A stretch of 46,186 bases of DNA, from the NCBI GenBank assembly GCA_003152315.1, contig PLZV01000007.1:1-46186 (forward strand), written 5' to 3'. Every line of letters begins with the position of its first letter. Within the stretch, counting starts at the first letter, position 1. Position numbers and translations under genes: made by a program. Under the pieces are notes generated by a model. That model saw nothing but the letters and a program-made list of their open reading frames with translations. It was not told where the DNA came from and made no database searches. Of this stretch, positions 31,898 through 39,820 are shown one piece after another. The stretch is from Verrucomicrobiota bacterium (GTDB lineage Bacteria; Verrucomicrobiota; Verrucomicrobiia; Palsa-1439).

Positions 31898-31901
31898 TCA
31901 A
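31621..31901 (-). mobile_element. IS1182-type insertion sequence remnant (3' end)
   Basis: GAGGCTGTTGAAAAAC at 31621-31636 looks like the terminal inverted repeat end typical of this IS group. On the reverse strand the frame 31662-31901 encodes LEQCLLTALVQNIKRIVATR, then FRQPAV, which resembles the C-terminal helix of IS1182-type DDE transposases (QxLLTAxVQNxKR). Only about 75 residues remain and the catalytic core is missing, so the element is dead. It abuts the 3' end of the secreted protein gene on the same strand. Confidence 0.6.
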
Positions 31902-33766
31902 CGCGCTGCTTGACGCGTGACGATGGGGACATAGCCCAACTCCAAACCCTCGGGCGGCGTCACGAGCAGGGCTGGATCGAGTGTCACCAGTACGCCCCGA
32001 CTGGGAGGCGGCATATAAGCCCGGTCAATCGGCCAGGTCGCGTGGATCTTTTCCACCATCGCCTGCAACTGCGCCTTCCTCGTCTCGCTCCAACCGTATT
32101 GCTGGAAGGATGGTTGATCGACAAAGCGGTACCAGGAGTAGGTCACCAAAGAACCGTCGGCAAGTTTGACCGTAAACGGCCCACGTTTCGGGCCGGGCAA
32201 GCTCCAGGCACCTGTCGTCGGTGAAGTGTAGGGTCGGCCCTGCCCTGCCCGTTTGAACTCCTGCGCCTGCAACTCCGTCTCCGCTGGCACGTCCGCTGCC
32301 GCTACGGCGACGCATTCCTCTCCGACGTGTTTGAAATACTGCGGGAACAAACCTTTGGGGCTGATGTCGCTGTTGAACCACTCCAGACCCCACGCGTTGC
32401 CCTCGAAAACTCGGGTATCAAACACGCGCTGAACACCGGTCATTTTCTTGTGATCCTGGTCGTAGCCCGTGGCGTTCGCCGTCAGCCTGGGCTTCCACTC
32501 GTTCCTCTCGTCGAATCGTCCGGAGCAGGCGGGTCCCCCGTTCCGCCAGGCCTTGAAGGCCTCGGCGAGTGCCGCCTTCGAGTAGAAGGTCATATCCTGC
32601 AAGAGCAGGGTTCGCCCCTGACCATCCACCGGGAATTGCAGCTTTGGTATTTTCGAATAGACCACCCCACGCGTGTCCTGGGCATCGTAACGCGGCACGG
32701 TATTGATCTCCATGGCGCCGCCGCCCATGGTACCCGGGTGCGCGTCGAGCCCGCGTCCATAGAGGAATGGATTCTTGAACAGCTTGCCGATCTTGCTCCA
32801 GCTCTCCGGAATGTAATAGGCGATCGGTCCCTTGAAGTTGGCCGCGCTCAGGAAACAAGTCCAGCTCTGGTCGCCGGTCGGCGGGTCTCCAGTAGTGGGA
32901 TCGGTGAAGGGCAAAGCCATCCAGCTATAACCCAGAAACTGGCCATTGGGACTCCCCTGGAACGGCAGCCCATCGGGAGGAATCAGCAGCCGGTTGCTCA
33001 ATTGGGCCATGCTCAAGCGATTGTCCGGCAGGGCCTCTCGGCCGCCGAAGAAAGCCCACCCCGGCGACCCAACCATGTAGTCGTAACATTGCGGTGTGGC
33101 GTTCATGCTGAACTTCGGCGAACCGTAGCGAAAGCGGTTGCCTGCCCAGTAGCCCGGACTGCCTTCAATCGTTTGGAATACGCTCGCCCATGTGGGACCA
33201 CGTTCCGGCATCGTCTTCCGCGCCTCCGTGCCCTCCGGAGCGAGCGGCGTAGCCTTGTCATCGGTGTTGTCCGGAAGGATCCAGGAACTCGCCAAACCTA
33301 CCTGGAACCCGTCGAGCGGTTGGTCAATCAACGACCAGACCGCGGAATAGAACCCCATGCCCGCACCATACTTGGGCTGTGCGGGCGGGCTGGCCGCGCT
33401 AAAAGCAATGTAACCGTGCAGTCCGTTGGAATGGGCCGTGGTCTTGGCAGTTGAAACTTTCTCTTTTTGCGTCTTCTCTGGTTCTGCTGGTTGTGCCTTC
33501 TGCCGGCCTTCTTGCCCGACAACTCGATATTGCGCCGCCTTTTGAGGGTCGTAACCGAATCTCTTCTGCAACTCCGGCGGCAACTCTCCCAGCGGTATCG
33601 AAGCCGCGCCAGTGCTGTGGCGAATGCTCACCCAGGATGGCGTCACCGTGCCAAACGTGACGTTTGAGTAGGTGATGCCGCCCACCGTAAGCGTCAGGTT
33701 GGTGTCATCAGCAAGAGCCGATTGCGCCGCAACACAACACAGAATCAAGAAGCCCGCTCTTCTCAT
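31898..33766 (-). CDS. Secreted protein of unknown function
   Basis: The product has a signal peptide (MRRAGFLILCCVAAQSALAD) and then a short N-terminal module (TLTVGGITYSNVTFGTVTPS, GAASIPLGELPPELQKRFGYD) that I recognise as recurring in Verrucomicrobiota exported proteins. It is followed by a charged linker with Lys/Glu/Pro and a body of about 490 residues with Trp-, Tyr- and Gly-rich segments. I cannot assign the body to a family. The ATG at 33766 puts the signal peptide at the N-terminus; an in-frame ATG at 33817 would add 17 residues. It is divergent from the first sigma-factor gene, sharing about 190 bases of upstream DNA. Confidence 0.75.
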   Translation of the reverse strand: MRRAGFLILCCVAAQSALADDTNLTLTVGGITYSNVTFGTVTPSWVSIRHSTGAASIPLGELPPELQKRFGYDPQKAAQYRVVGQEGRQKAQPAEPEKTQKEKVSTAKTTAHSNGLHGYIAFSAASPPAQPKYGAGMGFYSAVWSLIDQPLDGFQVGLASSWILPDNTDDKATPLAPEGTEARKTMPERGPTWASVFQTIEGSPGYWAGNRFRYGSPKFSMNATPQCYDYMVGSPGWAFFGGREALPDNRLSMAQLSNRLLIPPDGLPFQGSPNGQFLGYSWMALPFTDPTTGDPPTGDQSWTCFLSAANFKGPIAYYIPESWSKIGKLFKNPFLYGRGLDAHPGTMGGGAMEINTVPRYDAQDTRGVVYSKIPKLQFPVDGQGRTLLLQDMTFYSKAALAEAFKAWRNGGPACSGRFDERNEWKPRLTANATGYDQDHKKMTGVQRVFDTRVFEGNAWGLEWFNSDISPKGLFPQYFKHVGEECVAVAAADVPAETELQAQEFKRAGQGRPYTSPTTGAWSLPGPKRGPFTVKLADGSLVTYSWYRFVDQPSFQQYGWSETRKAQLQAMVEKIHATWPIDRAYMPPPSRGVLVTLDPALLVTPPEGLELGYVPIVTRQAAR

Positions 33767-33953
33767 GCACGCTCGTACAGTTTTCGTGTGCCATGATATT
33801 CCCTTCAGATGACGCATTCAATGGATGATTACAGCAGCAATGGACATAGGCCCCCCACTAAAGCACTCTCCTCCAATCCTCGATCTGCGTCGCCACCTCA
33901 CACCTTTTTTGTTCGGTTTTGCCTTCCAGCGGGGCTTTACTAGTGAACAGGAG

Positions 33954-35975
33954 ATGACGGACACCCGACAGTTGCTTGCCGAATACGCAGTGAACGGCTC
34001 AGAAGCGGCCTTTCGCGAGTTGGTTGCGCGCTACATCAACTTTGTCTATTCGGTGGCGCTACGCCTCGTCGATGGGGATACGCAGTTGGCCGAGGACGTG
34101 ACCCAAACGGTTTTCATCGCCCTGGCAAGGAAGGGCCACACGCTTTCCAGTGACGTCATGTTGGGCGGATGGCTGCATCAGCACACGTATCACGTTGCCA
34201 CCCGGGCCGTGCGCGGCGAGCACCGCCGTCAATCTCGTGAACGCGAGGCCGTAGAAATGAACACGCTGCAGGACGACTCCGCTGCCAACTGGCGACAGGT
34301 TGCGCCAATTCTTGATGAAGCCATCACTCAACTCGGTAGCGAGGACCGCACCGCGATTCTGCTCCGCTTCTTCGAGCAACACGATTTCCGTTCGGTGGGC
34401 GAAGTGTTGGGAAGCAATGAAGACGCCGCGCGCATGCGAGTGAACCGCGCATTGGAGAAGTTGCATTCTCTACTGACACGCCGAGGCGTCGCTTTGTCAG
34501 TTGCGGCGTTGGCAACCGTCCTGGCCGCCAAGGCCATCACTGCCGCGCCCGCCGGCCTGGCAGTCACTGCTTCCAGCGTTGCCCGCGCCGGCGCAGCGGC
34601 GGGAACCAAAACCACCCTCTCCTTTCTGAAAACAATGACTATGGCAAAGTCTCAGGTTGGTATTGTCGGCGCCATTCTCGTGGCAAGCGTGTTGACACTT
34701 CTGGTGGTTCAACATCAAGCCCACGTCAACCTGGGCGAAGAACATCAATCTTTGCGCCAACAACCCGGCCCTGCTGGGGCAAGCGATACAGCAGGACCAC
34801 CTCTACCCGCCGATTATTCAAAGGGAGCAGTAGATCAACCAGGCGCTTCCCGACCCGCTTCGATAAGTGAGATTAACCAGTTGTTTGAGCTAAGTATTGC
34901 CAGACCTGAACGCTCTCGGTTTATCGCCGATATTGAATTGATCGAGCCTGCGGCAACTGAAGATCAGATTGTTGCTGCGCTGAAATCCCAAAATGAACTA
35001 CTAAAAGCTAGGGACAGCCGATTGTCCCCAACCCAGATGGCAGATTTGATAACCGTTCGCTCCAACGGCATTGTTCGCGCTAGGTCAGGCACGAGAATCC
35101 AACACGTCGAAGAATGGTATTCCGGTCATTACAATCGTATGGATGAAACTGATGAGGCAGTTGTGTCACCTGATTATTTGCAGGCACATTCAAATCAGTA
35201 CCACGATACCTTTGTGAATATTCATGATCCAACATTTTCTCCCTACACGAGCTTTATTGTGAACCATCAATTACGGGACGTGATGTTGACCGAAGATCCA
35301 GAAACATATTATAGGGTTCCAAATAATCTTTGGCGCGTGCTAGGACTCGATCAACCGGTTGGAATTCCACTATTCCTTGCGCTGGCGGACATTCATTCAA
35401 TGAACACCAATGCGAGCCATTCACTTAATCTTATTGATCGTGACTCATTGTTGAGTAGTGTGAAGGCTGATTCTCGGAAAGTGGAAAGCCTTCATAATGG
35501 TTCGGACGCTAACTGGCATTTGGCGGCTAGCGACGACAGTCTTGATGGCATTCCCGTTACTCGATTTGAGCTTGATGGGAAATATCATGCGCCCGAGTCG
35601 CCGATGCCTCTGTCCTCAATTCAAGCTATCTACTGGATTGGCCAGATGTTGAATCGAACTGTCTGCCTGCAGGCTACGTTAACCAATTTGACGCAGGGGA
35701 GTTCCTTTTTCTCCAAACGTGAACAGCTTGATTATAACGGGTATCCGCATGTGTGGAGGACTTCTGATGCGAAAAACGGTGTCATTAAAGAGTTTCATGT
35801 TGTTTTCAAAGAAATTGATCCCAATCCCACGTTTACAGATGCAGAGATTTTCACCCCGAGTTTTCCAGCCGATTATAATGTTTCCGACATGACATCCGGA
35901 ACCGCCAAGATTCTACAAAGAGCTATGCCAGAACCCCTATGCCAGAGCCCGCCCCTAACAGGGGTCAACCCGTAG
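33954..35975 (+). CDS. ECF sigma factor fused to membrane anchor and large C-terminal domain
   Basis: The 673-residue protein from the ATG at 33954 has three parts. Residues about 1-170 form an ECF sigma factor: region 2 (EAAFRELVARYINFVYSVAL, AEDVTQTVFIALARK, GGWLHQHTYHVATRAVR) and region 4 (LDEAITQLGSEDRTAILLRF, LGSNEDAARMRVNRALEKLH). An Ala-rich segment and one transmembrane helix follow (about 228-248, SQVGIVGAILVASVLTLLVV). Then come about 420 residues that should lie outside the cytoplasm. The external part is visibly AT-richer than the sigma part and belongs to no family I know. No anti-sigma gene is adjacent, so the external domain may itself control the sigma domain. AGGAG directly abuts the ATG; the frame is open back to 33825. 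Confidence 0.88.
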   Translation: MTDTRQLLAEYAVNGSEAAFRELVARYINFVYSVALRLVDGDTQLAEDVTQTVFIALARKGHTLSSDVMLGGWLHQHTYHVATRAVRGEHRRQSREREAVEMNTLQDDSAANWRQVAPILDEAITQLGSEDRTAILLRFFEQHDFRSVGEVLGSNEDAARMRVNRALEKLHSLLTRRGVALSVAALATVLAAKAITAAPAGLAVTASSVARAGAAAGTKTTLSFLKTMTMAKSQVGIVGAILVASVLTLLVVQHQAHVNLGEEHQSLRQQPGPAGASDTAGPPLPADYSKGAVDQPGASRPASISEINQLFELSIARPERSRFIADIELIEPAATEDQIVAALKSQNELLKARDSRLSPTQMADLITVRSNGIVRARSGTRIQHVEEWYSGHYNRMDETDEAVVSPDYLQAHSNQYHDTFVNIHDPTFSPYTSFIVNHQLRDVMLTEDPETYYRVPNNLWRVLGLDQPVGIPLFLALADIHSMNTNASHSLNLIDRDSLLSSVKADSRKVESLHNGSDANWHLAASDDSLDGIPVTRFELDGKYHAPESPMPLSSIQAIYWIGQMLNRTVCLQATLTNLTQGSSFFSKREQLDYNGYPHVWRTSDAKNGVIKEFHVVFKEIDPNPTFTDAEIFTPSFPADYNVSDMTSGTAKILQRAMPEPLCQSPPLTGVNP

Positions 35976-36095
35976 CAGGGTCAGGGTCACCGCCTTGCTC
36001 CTGACGTCAAGTTCAGCGCTCATATATGTGCGCCACCGAAATGGGTTCTCCTCTTTCCCTGTCCGTTTTGAGCGTCGGCGGTTACTATTCTATGG

Positions 36096-37538
36096 GTGAA
36101 CAGTCTGGCCGACCAACAGCTTTTGCGCGATTACACCGAGCGCCACTCGGAAGCGGCGTTTGCCGAACTTGTGCGCCGGCACGTTGACCTTGTCCATTCC
36201 GCCGCGTTGCGAATGGTTCGCGATGCGCATCTGGCTGAGGACGTGACGCAGGGTGTGTTTCTGGCCTTGGCGCGGAATGCCGCGCAACTCACGAACCGCC
36301 CCGTTTTGTCTGGCTGGCTGCATCGCACGGCGCAAAACCTCGCGGCCAACACCGTCCGCTCCGATGTGCGCCGCCGTGCCCGCGAGCAGGAGGCCGCCGC
36401 CATGAACGAATCGCTTGCCCCCGAACACGACTCTGTCTGGGAAGACATCGCCCCGTATCTCGACGCGGCGCTGGGCGAGTTGAGCGAACCGGACCGCGAC
36501 GCGCTATTGCTGCGCTACTTTGAACGCAAGTCTGCCCGCGAAATGGCGCAAACCCTGGGCACAAGCGAGGACGCCGCGCAGAAACGCATCAGCCGCGCCG
36601 TCGAACGCCTGCGCGAATTCTTTGCCAAACGCGGCATCACGGTCGGCGTGAGTGGACTTGTTGTCGTCATCTCTGCGAACGCTGTCCAAGCGGCGCCCGC
36701 AGGACTCGCGGTCACGATGTCCAGCGCTGCCCTGGCGAGCGTGGCTGCGGGAACCGGAACAATACTCACCTTTCTGAAAGTGATGACTATGACAAAGGTT
36801 CAGGCTGGAATTGTGTGTGGCATCGTTGTCGCCAGTGCGGTGACTTCTTTGCAGATTGAACATCAAGCCCAGGCCAAAATGCGCCAGGTGGACGTGTCCT
36901 TGCAGCAACAAACCAGTCAACTGGCCCAATTGCAGGCCCAGAACGAGCGGCTTTCGAATCTCCTGACACAGGCAAGCAGCCCGAACAGCCCGGGCGACCT
37001 GGTGAAACTGCGCGACGAGGTGGCAATCCTGCGTAGTCAAACCAAAGAACTGACGGTCTTGCAGGACGAAAAACGCCGGCTACAGGCATCACTGCCAGAA
37101 TCCCGACATGATTGGGGGGTCCATTCAGACGGGGACGATTCCGAATGGAGCGACAAGTTATCCGCCAAACTGAATTACATGAGCCTACTGGGGCTTGCGA
37201 TCCGCGAATACGCCAGGAACAACCAGGGTTGGCCTCCCACCAGCTTTGAGGAGGCGGCGGCTTTCCTGTCAGACCGAGCCCGTAACGAAACCAACTTTAC
37301 GCCGGCTCAATTTGAAATCGTTTACCACGGAAACATGTTTGGCGCGTACAACAAATATGCGCATCCGAAACGCGTCCTCTTCATCCGGGAACGGGAGCCC
37401 TGGAAGAACACGGACGGGAAGTGGGTGAAACTCTACGAAGCGATAAACGGTTTGAGGTGGAACGTCAGTCTGCCGTACGGCGATTTTGAGGCCTGGGAAG
37501 AGCAGCGCATCGTCCCACCCGAATCATCGAACGAATGA
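36096..37538 (+). CDS. ECF sigma factor fused to membrane anchor and coiled coil
   Basis: The 480-residue protein starts at a GTG. Residues 1-175 are an ECF sigma factor: region 2 (EAAFAELVRRHVDLVHSAAL, AEDVTQGVFLALARN, GWLHRTAQNLAAN) and region 4 (LGELSEPDRDALLLRYFERK, LGTSEDAAQKRISRAVERL). An Ala-rich linker, a transmembrane helix in MTKVQAGIVCGIVVASAVTS (about 232-250), a coiled coil (about 255-330) and an external domain of about 120 residues follow. The last part (IREYARNNQGWPP, HPKRVLFIRE, DGKWVKLYEA) resembles pilin-like Verrucomicrobiota modules. It shares the linker (APAGLAVT) and the LKxMTM segment with the preceding sigma gene. Its stop codon overlaps the start of the next gene. 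Confidence 0.9.
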   Translation: MNSLADQQLLRDYTERHSEAAFAELVRRHVDLVHSAALRMVRDAHLAEDVTQGVFLALARNAAQLTNRPVLSGWLHRTAQNLAANTVRSDVRRRAREQEAAAMNESLAPEHDSVWEDIAPYLDAALGELSEPDRDALLLRYFERKSAREMAQTLGTSEDAAQKRISRAVERLREFFAKRGITVGVSGLVVVISANAVQAAPAGLAVTMSSAALASVAAGTGTILTFLKVMTMTKVQAGIVCGIVVASAVTSLQIEHQAQAKMRQVDVSLQQQTSQLAQLQAQNERLSNLLTQASSPNSPGDLVKLRDEVAILRSQTKELTVLQDEKRRLQASLPESRHDWGVHSDGDDSEWSDKLSAKLNYMSLLGLAIREYARNNQGWPPTSFEEAAAFLSDRARNETNFTPAQFEIVYHGNMFGAYNKYAHPKRVLFIREREPWKNTDGKWVKLYEAINGLRWNVSLPYGDFEAWEEQRIVPPESSNE

Positions 37539-38401
37539 AAACACTTAAACTCGGCATCATCGGCGCGGTTGTGGCCGTCGCTCTGGCGTCCCCGTTGCTG
37601 GTTCAACATCGTACGGAAGTCCGCTGGCGCGCGCAGCAGCAAACCCTGCGGCAGCAGGCGGTTCTCCTGGACCAATGGTCGGCAGAGAATGCACGGCTCT
37701 CGAATGCTGTTGCTCAGGTCAAGAGTTCGCAATCTTTTTCCGACGCGCAACTCGCGAACTTGGTGAAACTGCGAAACGAATTCGGGGAGCTTCAACAGAC
37801 CATTCAAGAGATGGAACAGCTTCGGCACCAGATACAGCGATTGCGCGACCGCTTGCAGGATGCGGCCAAGGAGGAGGAGGATGGCCGTGACAACTACACC
37901 GCCCTTTTGGCAGACGAGATGCCGCGGAGGCAGGCGCGGGTGGCCCGGCTTAGACAGTGGCTGGAGGAAATGCCGGAGGAAAAGATTCCGGAACTGCGAT
38001 TCCTTTCCGAGGACGACTGGATAGCGGAGGTGGACGATCCATTGGTCACGGACGAGGACTATCGCAGCGCAATGTATGCTTTGCGGGCCGACGCCGACTG
38101 CGAGTTTGCCCGGAGGGCATTCCGGGCGCTCCGGCAATATGCCCAGATCAACAATGGCCAATTCCCAACCGATCTCTCGCAATTGAAACCCTATTTCGAG
38201 TCCCCCATTGACGATGCGATTCTGCAACGGTACGAGATCGTCCCAACGAAAAGCCTGGTCTCATCCCTCGCCGAGTTGGGCGGAGATCGGCTGATAACCG
38301 AGAAAGCTCCGGTTAACAAAGAATTGGATCTGCGCACGGCCATAGGCACAAACACGTGGCGCAACACTATGGAGGGGGGCCGGTGGGATCCAGTGCAATA
38401 G
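37535..38401 (+). CDS. Membrane-anchored coiled-coil protein, stand-alone sensor-like module
   Basis: The 288-residue protein has an N-terminal transmembrane segment (LGIIGAVVAVALASPLLVQH), a long coiled coil (about 25-120) and a C-terminal domain with RALRQYAQINNGQFPTDLSQ and LKPYFESP, which resembles pilin-like modules. It looks like the part of the upstream sigma fusion that follows the sigma domain: both have a TM segment, a Gln-rich coil with SAENARLSN or QNERLSN, and a similar end domain. Its ATG overlaps the sigma gene stop (ATGA), so it is coupled to it. It may partner the sigma fusion through the coil, perhaps as a regulator. This is inference. Confidence 0.8.
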   Translation: MKTLKLGIIGAVVAVALASPLLVQHRTEVRWRAQQQTLRQQAVLLDQWSAENARLSNAVAQVKSSQSFSDAQLANLVKLRNEFGELQQTIQEMEQLRHQIQRLRDRLQDAAKEEEDGRDNYTALLADEMPRRQARVARLRQWLEEMPEEKIPELRFLSEDDWIAEVDDPLVTDEDYRSAMYALRADADCEFARRAFRALRQYAQINNGQFPTDLSQLKPYFESPIDDAILQRYEIVPTKSLVSSLAELGGDRLITEKAPVNKELDLRTAIGTNTWRNTMEGGRWDPVQ

Positions 38402-38452: not shown

Positions 38453-39820
38453 TCACCCATTCAGCAACTTCTTCCACCGCTTGATCTGCGCCGCCACATT
38501 CTTTGGCGAGGGCGCGCCGATGGCGGTGCGGGCGGCCAGGGCCCGGCGGACGTCGAACACCTTACCGGCGGCGGGTCCGTACTTCTTGGCGGCGAGCTTG
38601 GGCAGCGAGATGTGGGTCTTTTCCACCTCGGCGACGAGCGCGCCGACGGCGTGATGGGCTTCGCGGAACGGCATCCCTTTCATCACCAGAAAATCAACAA
38701 GGTCGGTCGCGAGCATCAGCGGGTCGCTGGCGGCGGCTTCGCATTTGACGTGGTTCACATGGATGTGGCCCATCATTTCTGCCACCATGTGCAGCGTGGA
38801 CAATAAAACATCAGCCGACTTGAATAGCGGTTGCTTGTCTTCCTGCAAATCGCGGTTGTAGGTCAACGGCAGCGACTTCAGGAGCGTCAATGCCTGCACG
38901 AGGTTGCCGTAAAGCCGCGCCGTCTTGCCACGCGCCAGCTCGGCGATGTCGGGATTCTTCTTCTGCGGCATCAGCGACGAACCGGTCGTGTAGGCGTCGG
39001 CAATCGTGATGAAACCGAACTCCGCGCTCGACCAGAGAATCAAGTCCTCCGCCAGCCGCGATAAATGCGCGCCCGTGAGCGCCGCCGTCGCGTGAAATTC
39101 CACAATGAAATCGCGGTCGCCAACGGCATCCATCGAGTTCTGCGTCACACCCGCGAAACCGAGCAGCTTGGCAACATACGCGCGGTCGAGCTTCAGCGTG
39201 CTGCCGGCGATCGCGCCGGAGCCCAGCGGGCAAATGTTGGCGCGTTTGGCGCAGTCGGCAAAGCGCTCGGCGTCGCGACCCAACATCTCGACGTACGCAA
39301 GAAGATGGTGCGCCAGCAAGACGGGCTGGGCCCGCTGCAGGTGCGTGTAGCCCGGAATGACCGTGTCGCACTCCTTCTCCGCCAGCGTGACAAGTGCACC
39401 CTGCAAGTTTCGGATCTCGAAGTTCGTGCTGCGAATTTTTGCGACGAGCCAGAGGCGAATATCAGTGGCGATTTGGTCATTCCGGCTCCGGCCCGTGTGC
39501 AGCTTCTTGCCCGCCGCGCCAATCTTGCGAATCAGCGCCGCCTCGATGTTCATGTGGACGTCTTCGCAGTCAAAATCCCACTTGAATTTACCGGATTCGA
39601 TCTCGTGCTGAATGGCACGCAAGCCGCGCTCGATCTTCTTCACTTCCGCCCGGGTGAGCAGGCCGACCTTCGCCAGCCCTTTCGCATGGGCAATGGACCC
39701 GGCGATGTCGTGGTTGAACAACCGCCAATCGAAGCTGACGCTCTCGGTGTAAGCCTTGACGGCTTCCGCCGGCCCGGCCGAGAAACGACCGCCCCACGTT
39801 GACTGCGACGTTTTCTTCAT
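38453..39820 (-). CDS. argH: Argininosuccinate lyase
   Basis: The 455-residue protein is a full argininosuccinate lyase: WGGRFSAGPAEAVKAYTESV at the N-terminus, EDVHMNIEAAL, HTGRSRNDQIATDIRLWL, GYTHLQRAQPVLLAHHLL, and the signature loop GSSLMPQKKNPDIAELARGK with the flexible Ser. It splits argininosuccinate into arginine and fumarate. The downstream gene on the same strand side (39833-40636) lies 13 bases upstream of its start, so the two may be co-transcribed. A truncated copy of its 3' end lies at 28955-29235, 9.2 kb away in the same orientation. Confidence 0.98.
   Translation of the reverse strand: MKKTSQSTWGGRFSAGPAEAVKAYTESVSFDWRLFNHDIAGSIAHAKGLAKVGLLTRAEVKKIERGLRAIQHEIESGKFKWDFDCEDVHMNIEAALIRKIGAAGKKLHTGRSRNDQIATDIRLWLVAKIRSTNFEIRNLQGALVTLAEKECDTVIPGYTHLQRAQPVLLAHHLLAYVEMLGRDAERFADCAKRANICPLGSGAIAGSTLKLDRAYVAKLLGFAGVTQNSMDAVGDRDFIVEFHATAALTGAHLSRLAEDLILWSSAEFGFITIADAYTTGSSLMPQKKNPDIAELARGKTARLYGNLVQALTLLKSLPLTYNRDLQEDKQPLFKSADVLLSTLHMVAEMMGHIHVNHVKCEAAASDPLMLATDLVDFLVMKGMPFREAHHAVGALVAEVEKTHISLPKLAAKKYGPAAGKVFDVRRALAARTAIGAPSPKNVAAQIKRWKKLLNG

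Follow-up and report, generated by a model that had tools for sequence, protein, structure and literature searches.

ECF sigma factors with a membrane extension of their own have been described before. In Pseudomonas putida, IutY (ECF243) combines a sigma factor with a membrane anti-sigma factor, takes part in cell-surface signalling and is freed by proteolysis, and in ECF48, ECF52 and ECF53 of Actinobacteria (SCO4117) the sigma part is followed by a linker, one or two TM segments and an extracytoplasmic domain (PMC8999054). How ECF sigma factors without a nearby anti-sigma gene are controlled is a question raised in the review PMC8103513. ECF41 and ECF42 carry a soluble C-terminal domain, SnoaL_2 or TPR, that is attached directly to the sigma part. 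Planctomycete ECFs with C-terminal TM extensions are said to have been described by Jogler in 2012; we know of no headless partner and no exchange of heads and tails among them. Fused membrane ECFs are known, and what appears to be new in the locus presented here is a headless partner, which consists of the part behind the sigma factor only, and a pair of sensors that travels together. Among the papers searched, none dealt with the Verrucomicrobial family or with partners of the headless kind; novelty was judged from reviews and general knowledge.

The window, meaning the whole stretch of 46,186 nucleotides that was analysed, is contig C1 of a 4.9-Mb genome, the relatives of which are Verrucomicrobiota labelled mostly as Limisphaerales, Verrucomicrobiales or Pedosphaera. 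Coordinates and reading frames of the three genes studied were rechecked and are right. The locus has the following features:

31898–33817, minus strand: gene 5´ of P0001
33910–33942, plus strand: promoter-like element before P0001, TGTTCGGTTTTGCCTTCCAGCGGGGCTTTACTA, fits the family upstream motif
33954–35975, plus strand: P0001 (gene 1), 673 aa, ECF sigma head, AP linker, TM and rare low-GC, probably extracytoplasmic tail (Pfam, family alignment)
34656–34712, plus strand: predicted TM helix of P0001, residues 235–253 (hydropathy 2.48, best segment of the region)
36060–36089, plus strand: promoter-like element before P0002, TGTCCGTTTTGAGCGTCGGCGGTTACTATT, 6 nt ahead of the GTG start, fits the family upstream motif
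36096–37538, plus strand: P0002 (gene 2), 480 aa, GTG start, ECF sigma head, AP linker, TM, coil and putative pilin-like tail of type A
36630–36779, plus strand: linker of P0002, residues 179–228, with the invariant AP; site of head/tail exchange in relatives
36804–36860, plus strand: predicted TM helix of P0002, residues 237–255 (hydropathy 1.68; helix 243–293 in the model)
37535–37538, plus strand: ATGA, start of P0003 overlapping the stop of P0002
37535–38401, plus strand: P0003 (gene 3), 288 aa, headless TM, coil and putative pilin-like tail of type B
37550–37606, plus strand: predicted TM helix of P0003, residues 6–24 (hydropathy 2.18)
37988–38374, plus strand: putative pilin-like domain of P0003, about residues 152–280 (AlphaFold pLDDT mostly 75–96; weak type IV pilin matches)
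38453–39820, minus strand: gene 3´ of P0003, which we take from its sequence to be argininosuccinate lyase-like

P0001 and P0002 are genuine ECF sigma factors, and in each of them an AP linker joins the sigma part to a single TM helix with a C-terminal extension behind it. Both exceed the Pfam cut-offs for Sigma70_r2 (PF04542, cut-off 24 bits; 33.7 bits for P0001 and 46.4 bits for P0002) and r4_2 (PF08281, cut-off 25.7 bits; 28.5 and 45.2 bits), TIGR02937 (sigma70-ECF) is above its cut-off as well, and the matches are to regions 2 and 4 only, with no region 1.1 or 3. The sigma residues that are invariant throughout the family alignment are present in both proteins. In addition, the P0002 model superposes on sigmaE, sigmaL, sigmaH and AlgU, its sigma4 part with a Z of about 10 against sigmaE, sigmaL and others. 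The sigma regions proposed in the first-pass annotation are thus borne out.

Region 4 is followed by the linker, with an A-P that is invariant in 23 family members, by a nearly invariant Met-Thr, by one TM and by the tail. P0001 and P0002 are 48% identical over residues 1–272, linker and TM included; the common plan attributed to both genes from the letters alone therefore holds for sigma regions 2 and 4, the AP linker and the TM, but the likeness ends after the TM. Simple scales point to the segment behind MTMTK as the most probable TM, the linker being only moderately hydrophobic. A second TM in the linker was considered and rejected, since a residue-cost scale is unfavourable for it in nearly all members, the linker segment of P0001 being borderline on these simple, untrained scales. 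The family alignment shows a single TM with a Lys on its N-terminal side, which following the positive-inside rule suggests an N-inside, C-outside topology, and the tail is probably located outside the cell with the sigma factor tethered inside. The P0002 model (mean pLDDT 64, 19 sequences) shows TM and coil as helix and the tail as a small sheet next to a long helix; confidence in the linker is very low.

The likeness to IutY lies in an ECF sigma factor with a C-terminal membrane extension and a probable extracytoplasmic input; the difference is that IutY contains an anti-sigma part, whereas here we find the AP linker and a headless paralogue of the tail as neighbour. A FecR-like anti-sigma part, as in IutY and ECF243, gave no Pfam match in the C-terminal extensions at E up to 1. 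ECF48, ECF52 and ECF53 differ in having a zinc-finger (ZAS) part before the TM, and no headless partner is described for them in the passages of PMC8999054 used for this comparison. A search for a zinc finger or ZAS segment before the TM gave no match at E up to 1, and the P0002 linker (residues 179–228) contains neither Cys nor His. Unlike in ECF41 and ECF42, a TM lies between sigma factor and tail, and Pfam gave no SnoaL or TPR match in P0001 or P0002. None of the Pfam and NCBIfam names for the tails was convincing. Neither between P0001, P0002 and P0003 nor immediately next to them is there a candidate anti-sigma gene, in agreement with what had been noted at first.

The tail of P0001 is unlike that of P0002 and represents a different, rare, low-GC domain. 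Its coding region (34794–35972) has a GC content of 47% and a GC3 of 44%, compared with 61% and 69% for the head, and its one distant homologue in 384 genomes is a stand-alone frame of 323 aa. It is probably a recently captured domain. With this difference in GC3 between head and tail, P0001 fits the picture of exchange between heads and tails that is presented below.

P0003 is the post-sigma part alone and is homologous over its full length to tails that are fused to sigma factors elsewhere. Its residues 7–273 share 38% identity (E 1.7e-35) with a tail that is fused to a sigma factor in a genome from this genus. An alignment with nine sigma-fused tails covers P0003 from one end to the other and places its first Met on the conserved Met before the TM. 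Within the window, its similarity to P0002 extends from MTMTK across TM and coil (29% identity, E 4e-12), and that to P0001 covers 41 residues. The first-pass annotation had read the third gene in exactly this way, coupled to the second gene, and had made this reading depend on a similarity to the C-terminal parts of the sigma fusions; both the similarity and, with the ATGA overlap, the coupling were found. An internal start at the conserved Met, which would yield a free module from a fused gene, was also considered but is unsupported: inspection by eye revealed no Shine-Dalgarno-like sequence upstream of it in 23 fused genes.

The model of P0003 (mean pLDDT 75) consists of a TM-coil helix, a break, a coil helix and a long helix with four strands. 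Among the structures compared with VIA-align, the type IV pilins PilA1, PilA5 and PilX matched residues 170–284 weakly (Z 2.7–4.8), whereas Foldseek alone found nothing significant; a pilin-like fold, as had been assumed for the end of the third protein, is thus weakly suggested. Compared with the sequences of solved structures, the tail-B profile gave only coiled-coil-type matches. P0003 resembles type IV pilins and pseudopilins in its N-terminal TM helix, long helix and predicted beta-sheet head, but differs from them in the long coil between TM and head, in being fused to sigma factors in relatives and in lacking a prepilin peptidase motif: its start, MKTLKLGIIGAVV, does not contain the cleavage motif G-F-x3-E before the TM. 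Comparison of P0003 with the partner in locus L001 gave a dN/dS of 0.36 at a dS of 0.9, and comparison of tail A gave 0.45; these are simple Nei-Gojobori values near saturation, and they do not look like those of a decaying gene.

The distribution of the family was determined in a sample of 384 genomes of the class, representing 171 genera (an order-level search gave the same 11 genomes as the family search). The sigma and linker part was found in at least 91 of the 384 genomes and at least 59 of the 171 genera, with up to seven candidates scored in each genome. The tail profile matched in 40 genomes, often in frames of 260–390 aa located directly behind a longer frame, and ten further pairs of sigma gene and headless neighbour were verified at these loci. 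For 32 of 144 non-redundant family sigma genes a headless homologue adjoins on the same strand; 30 of these automatically assigned pairs are convincing, while two are doubtful, L194 because its genes are separated by 308 nt and L220 because it has no TM and resembles a frameshifted tail. At 100 further sigma loci, taken without regard to their neighbours, the headless tail gene was located directly downstream in 13 cases (11 without L194 and L220), upstream in one and on the opposite strand in one. Since 87 of these 100 loci have no detectable partner next door, the partner is not generally required.

With the exception of L194 and L220, partners start between −19 and +51 nt from the sigma stop; the start in L010 is about 10 nt after it, eight pairs overlap as ATGA and two as TAATG. 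The partner is often of the same tail type as its sigma factor, with TPR/TPR (59% identical), NTF2-like/NTF2-like (named by eye), B/B and A/A combinations; in the relative L097 the TPR tail lies behind the TM. Headless tails without an adjoining sigma gene were observed too (L083, L084, L085, L087–L090 and L100:1938-2906), and those of tail type B fall mainly into two clades of their own.

Three other loci, L001, L002 and L082 (genome G078), have the same arrangement as the window, a sigma factor with tail A together with a free tail B. The free B tails of these three loci and P0003 form a clade with 97% SH-aLRT support, and the A tails of P0002 and of the sigma factors just upstream of the three free tails form one with 99%. 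The four sigma heads, a group defined from the tail trees and not from the head tree, do not group together (lnL difference 256, AU p 8.6e-9). Thus, the two sensors have been inherited together while the sigma factor was exchanged. A search of relatives for the same triplet of genes had been suggested; what the evidence supports as the unit is the pair of genes 2 and 3. A separate promoter-like motif precedes gene 2, and gene 1 is a neighbouring paralogue, the tail of which is unrelated.

An exchange can be followed directly in L001:4001-5500, a chimera with the head of L002:2463-4115 and the tail of L002:4755-6269, in which the switch lies in the linker SANAVQAAPVGLAVT. The reverse arrangement, a sigma factor with tail B and a free tail A, is present in L008, L012, L175 and L002. 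Free forms are scattered among fused ones in the B-tail tree, and well-supported branches force at least four changes between them, so headless partners are of several origins in this tree. Partners in L095, L081 and L010 are sister to the tail of their own sigma factor, showing that duplication was followed by head loss more than once; the window pair is older than these according to the trees. The partners in L010 and L097 carry linker-like residues, AIA or SAIA, in frame just ahead of their start Met. The C-terminus of the L002 partner is different and apparently frameshifted, and the free A gene of L001 is split between frames; some partners may therefore decay.

Taking these observations together, we think it somewhat probable that genes 2 and 3 form a two-gene unit, in which the tethered tail and the free module would together make up a two-part receptor that would hold the sigma factor until a signal triggers its release. 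The TM of P0002 would anchor the protein on the inner side of the cytoplasmic membrane, with its coil and pilin-like sensor outside, and P0003, a headless paralogue of this kind of tail, would be made from the same mRNA by translational coupling. TM and coil of P0003 would pair with the P0002 tail to give an extracytoplasmic receptor, and the heads of the paired tails would sense. A signal might change the complex and free the sigma factor, probably by regulated intramembrane proteolysis; this step is borrowed from IutY (PMC8999054). The freed sigma factor would then transcribe its target genes, its own probably among them. Cooperation of the free module with the fused one, which the first-pass annotation had considered, has strong indirect support from sequence comparison, because the pair recurs and both halves of the sensor are passed on together whereas the sigma head changes. 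A wider reading would be a distinct class of sigma control without any anti-sigma factor: the membrane tail would inhibit its own sigma factor in cis, a headless paralogue of the tail would regulate it in trans, and the sensors would form one cassette into which different heads are plugged by recombination in the conserved linker. We would give this reading slightly less than even weight.

It might also be that P0003 is a functionless leftover of a tandem duplication of the sigma fusion that subsequently lost its head. Duplication and head loss do describe a route of origin, as seen from the AIA and SAIA residues in L010 and L097 and from the several partners that are sister to the tail of their own sigma, and the free genes of L002 and L001 show frame damage. 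However, the frame of P0003 is intact and of full length, its dN/dS against a distant orthologue is about 0.36, the same pair has been kept in other lineages in clades with 97–99% support, and same-strand downstream placement is far above the controls, with repeated ATGA coupling, which makes a mere leftover quite unlikely. A role as dominant-negative protein or decoy, without any part in sensing, would demand that P0003 either lowers signalling by entering into mixed oligomers with the tail of P0002 or acts as a competitor for the site-1 protease. A headless copy in which TM, coil and sensor are retained looks as expected for a decoy, and many partners share the tail type of their sigma factor; in the window pair, though, types A and B are joined stably over distant genomes, which suits a heteromeric receptor better, and we regard a decoy as unlikely.

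Regulators of the ToxR/CadC type are tethered one-component proteins with a single TM and a coil. By analogy, the sigma factor might act while bound to the membrane, without release, and the free module might tune its dimerisation. The single TM and coil of the family would agree with this, and neither a protease site nor a protease gene was identified in the window. Nevertheless, a sigma factor must join core RNA polymerase, and the studied fused ECF, IutY, is freed by proteolysis (PMC8999054), and action at the membrane therefore seems very unlikely to us. Against the two-part receptor speak the many family sigma genes without a partner next door, the headless genes away from any sigma gene, the damaged free genes of L002 and L001, and L001:907-2256 (L001:898), a sigma fusion nearly identical to L002:189-1652 (92% in the head) that is without exactly the TM segment and has kept its partner gene. 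This last case does not fit an obligate membrane pair unless the copy is broken; it could be a natural soluble variant or an assembly error.

If the two-part receptor is correct, the recurring pair points to a way of gene control that works without the usual inhibitor protein and has not yet been described. A family with many members and a recurrent headless partner makes the question posed in PMC8103513 testable in one two-gene unit. Because heads and tails have been swapped in nature at a fixed linker, the family also illustrates how a sensor can be connected to a different regulon.

The promoter-like elements belong to a family motif, TGTYSGRTTT followed after about 9 nt by GGCGGYTACTAT, located mostly 35–40 nt ahead of the start. 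In its loose form, the motif is present upstream of 88 of 143 sigma genes, with 3.5 expected from shuffles. The strict form has 28 matches in 384 genomes (7 for the reversed control); eight of them lie before family sigma genes and the others mostly in unrelated or coding places. A regulon search of the own genome with the exact pattern gave nothing, and no further target genes were found by the motif in the own genome or class-wide in the 384 genomes. From the position of the element at 36060–36089, transcription of P0002 would start at or near the GTG. As the motif is common to the sigma genes themselves, it suggests auto- or cross-regulation within the family.

Several relatives show how variable the parts behind the sigma head can be. 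In L003 and L013, four to five sigma genes of the family stand in tandem, and their tails differ. Members of about 1,100 aa, with tails of carboxypeptidase-regulatory-like repeats (domain assigned by eye), are conserved within the genus (G000:C34:92141, locus L028, and G010:C4, locus L049). The genome of the window itself encodes further long ECF sigma proteins of a different subfamily (L029, L032 and L035), in which region 4 is followed by several hydrophobic segments. With the planctomycete ECFs the family shares its occurrence in PVC bacteria and the order of sigma factor, TM and probable outside domain. A related sigma head with AP linker and TM was found in a 1,266-aa protein from Planctomycetota (L015:4007-7804), so this plan reaches beyond the Verrucomicrobiota.
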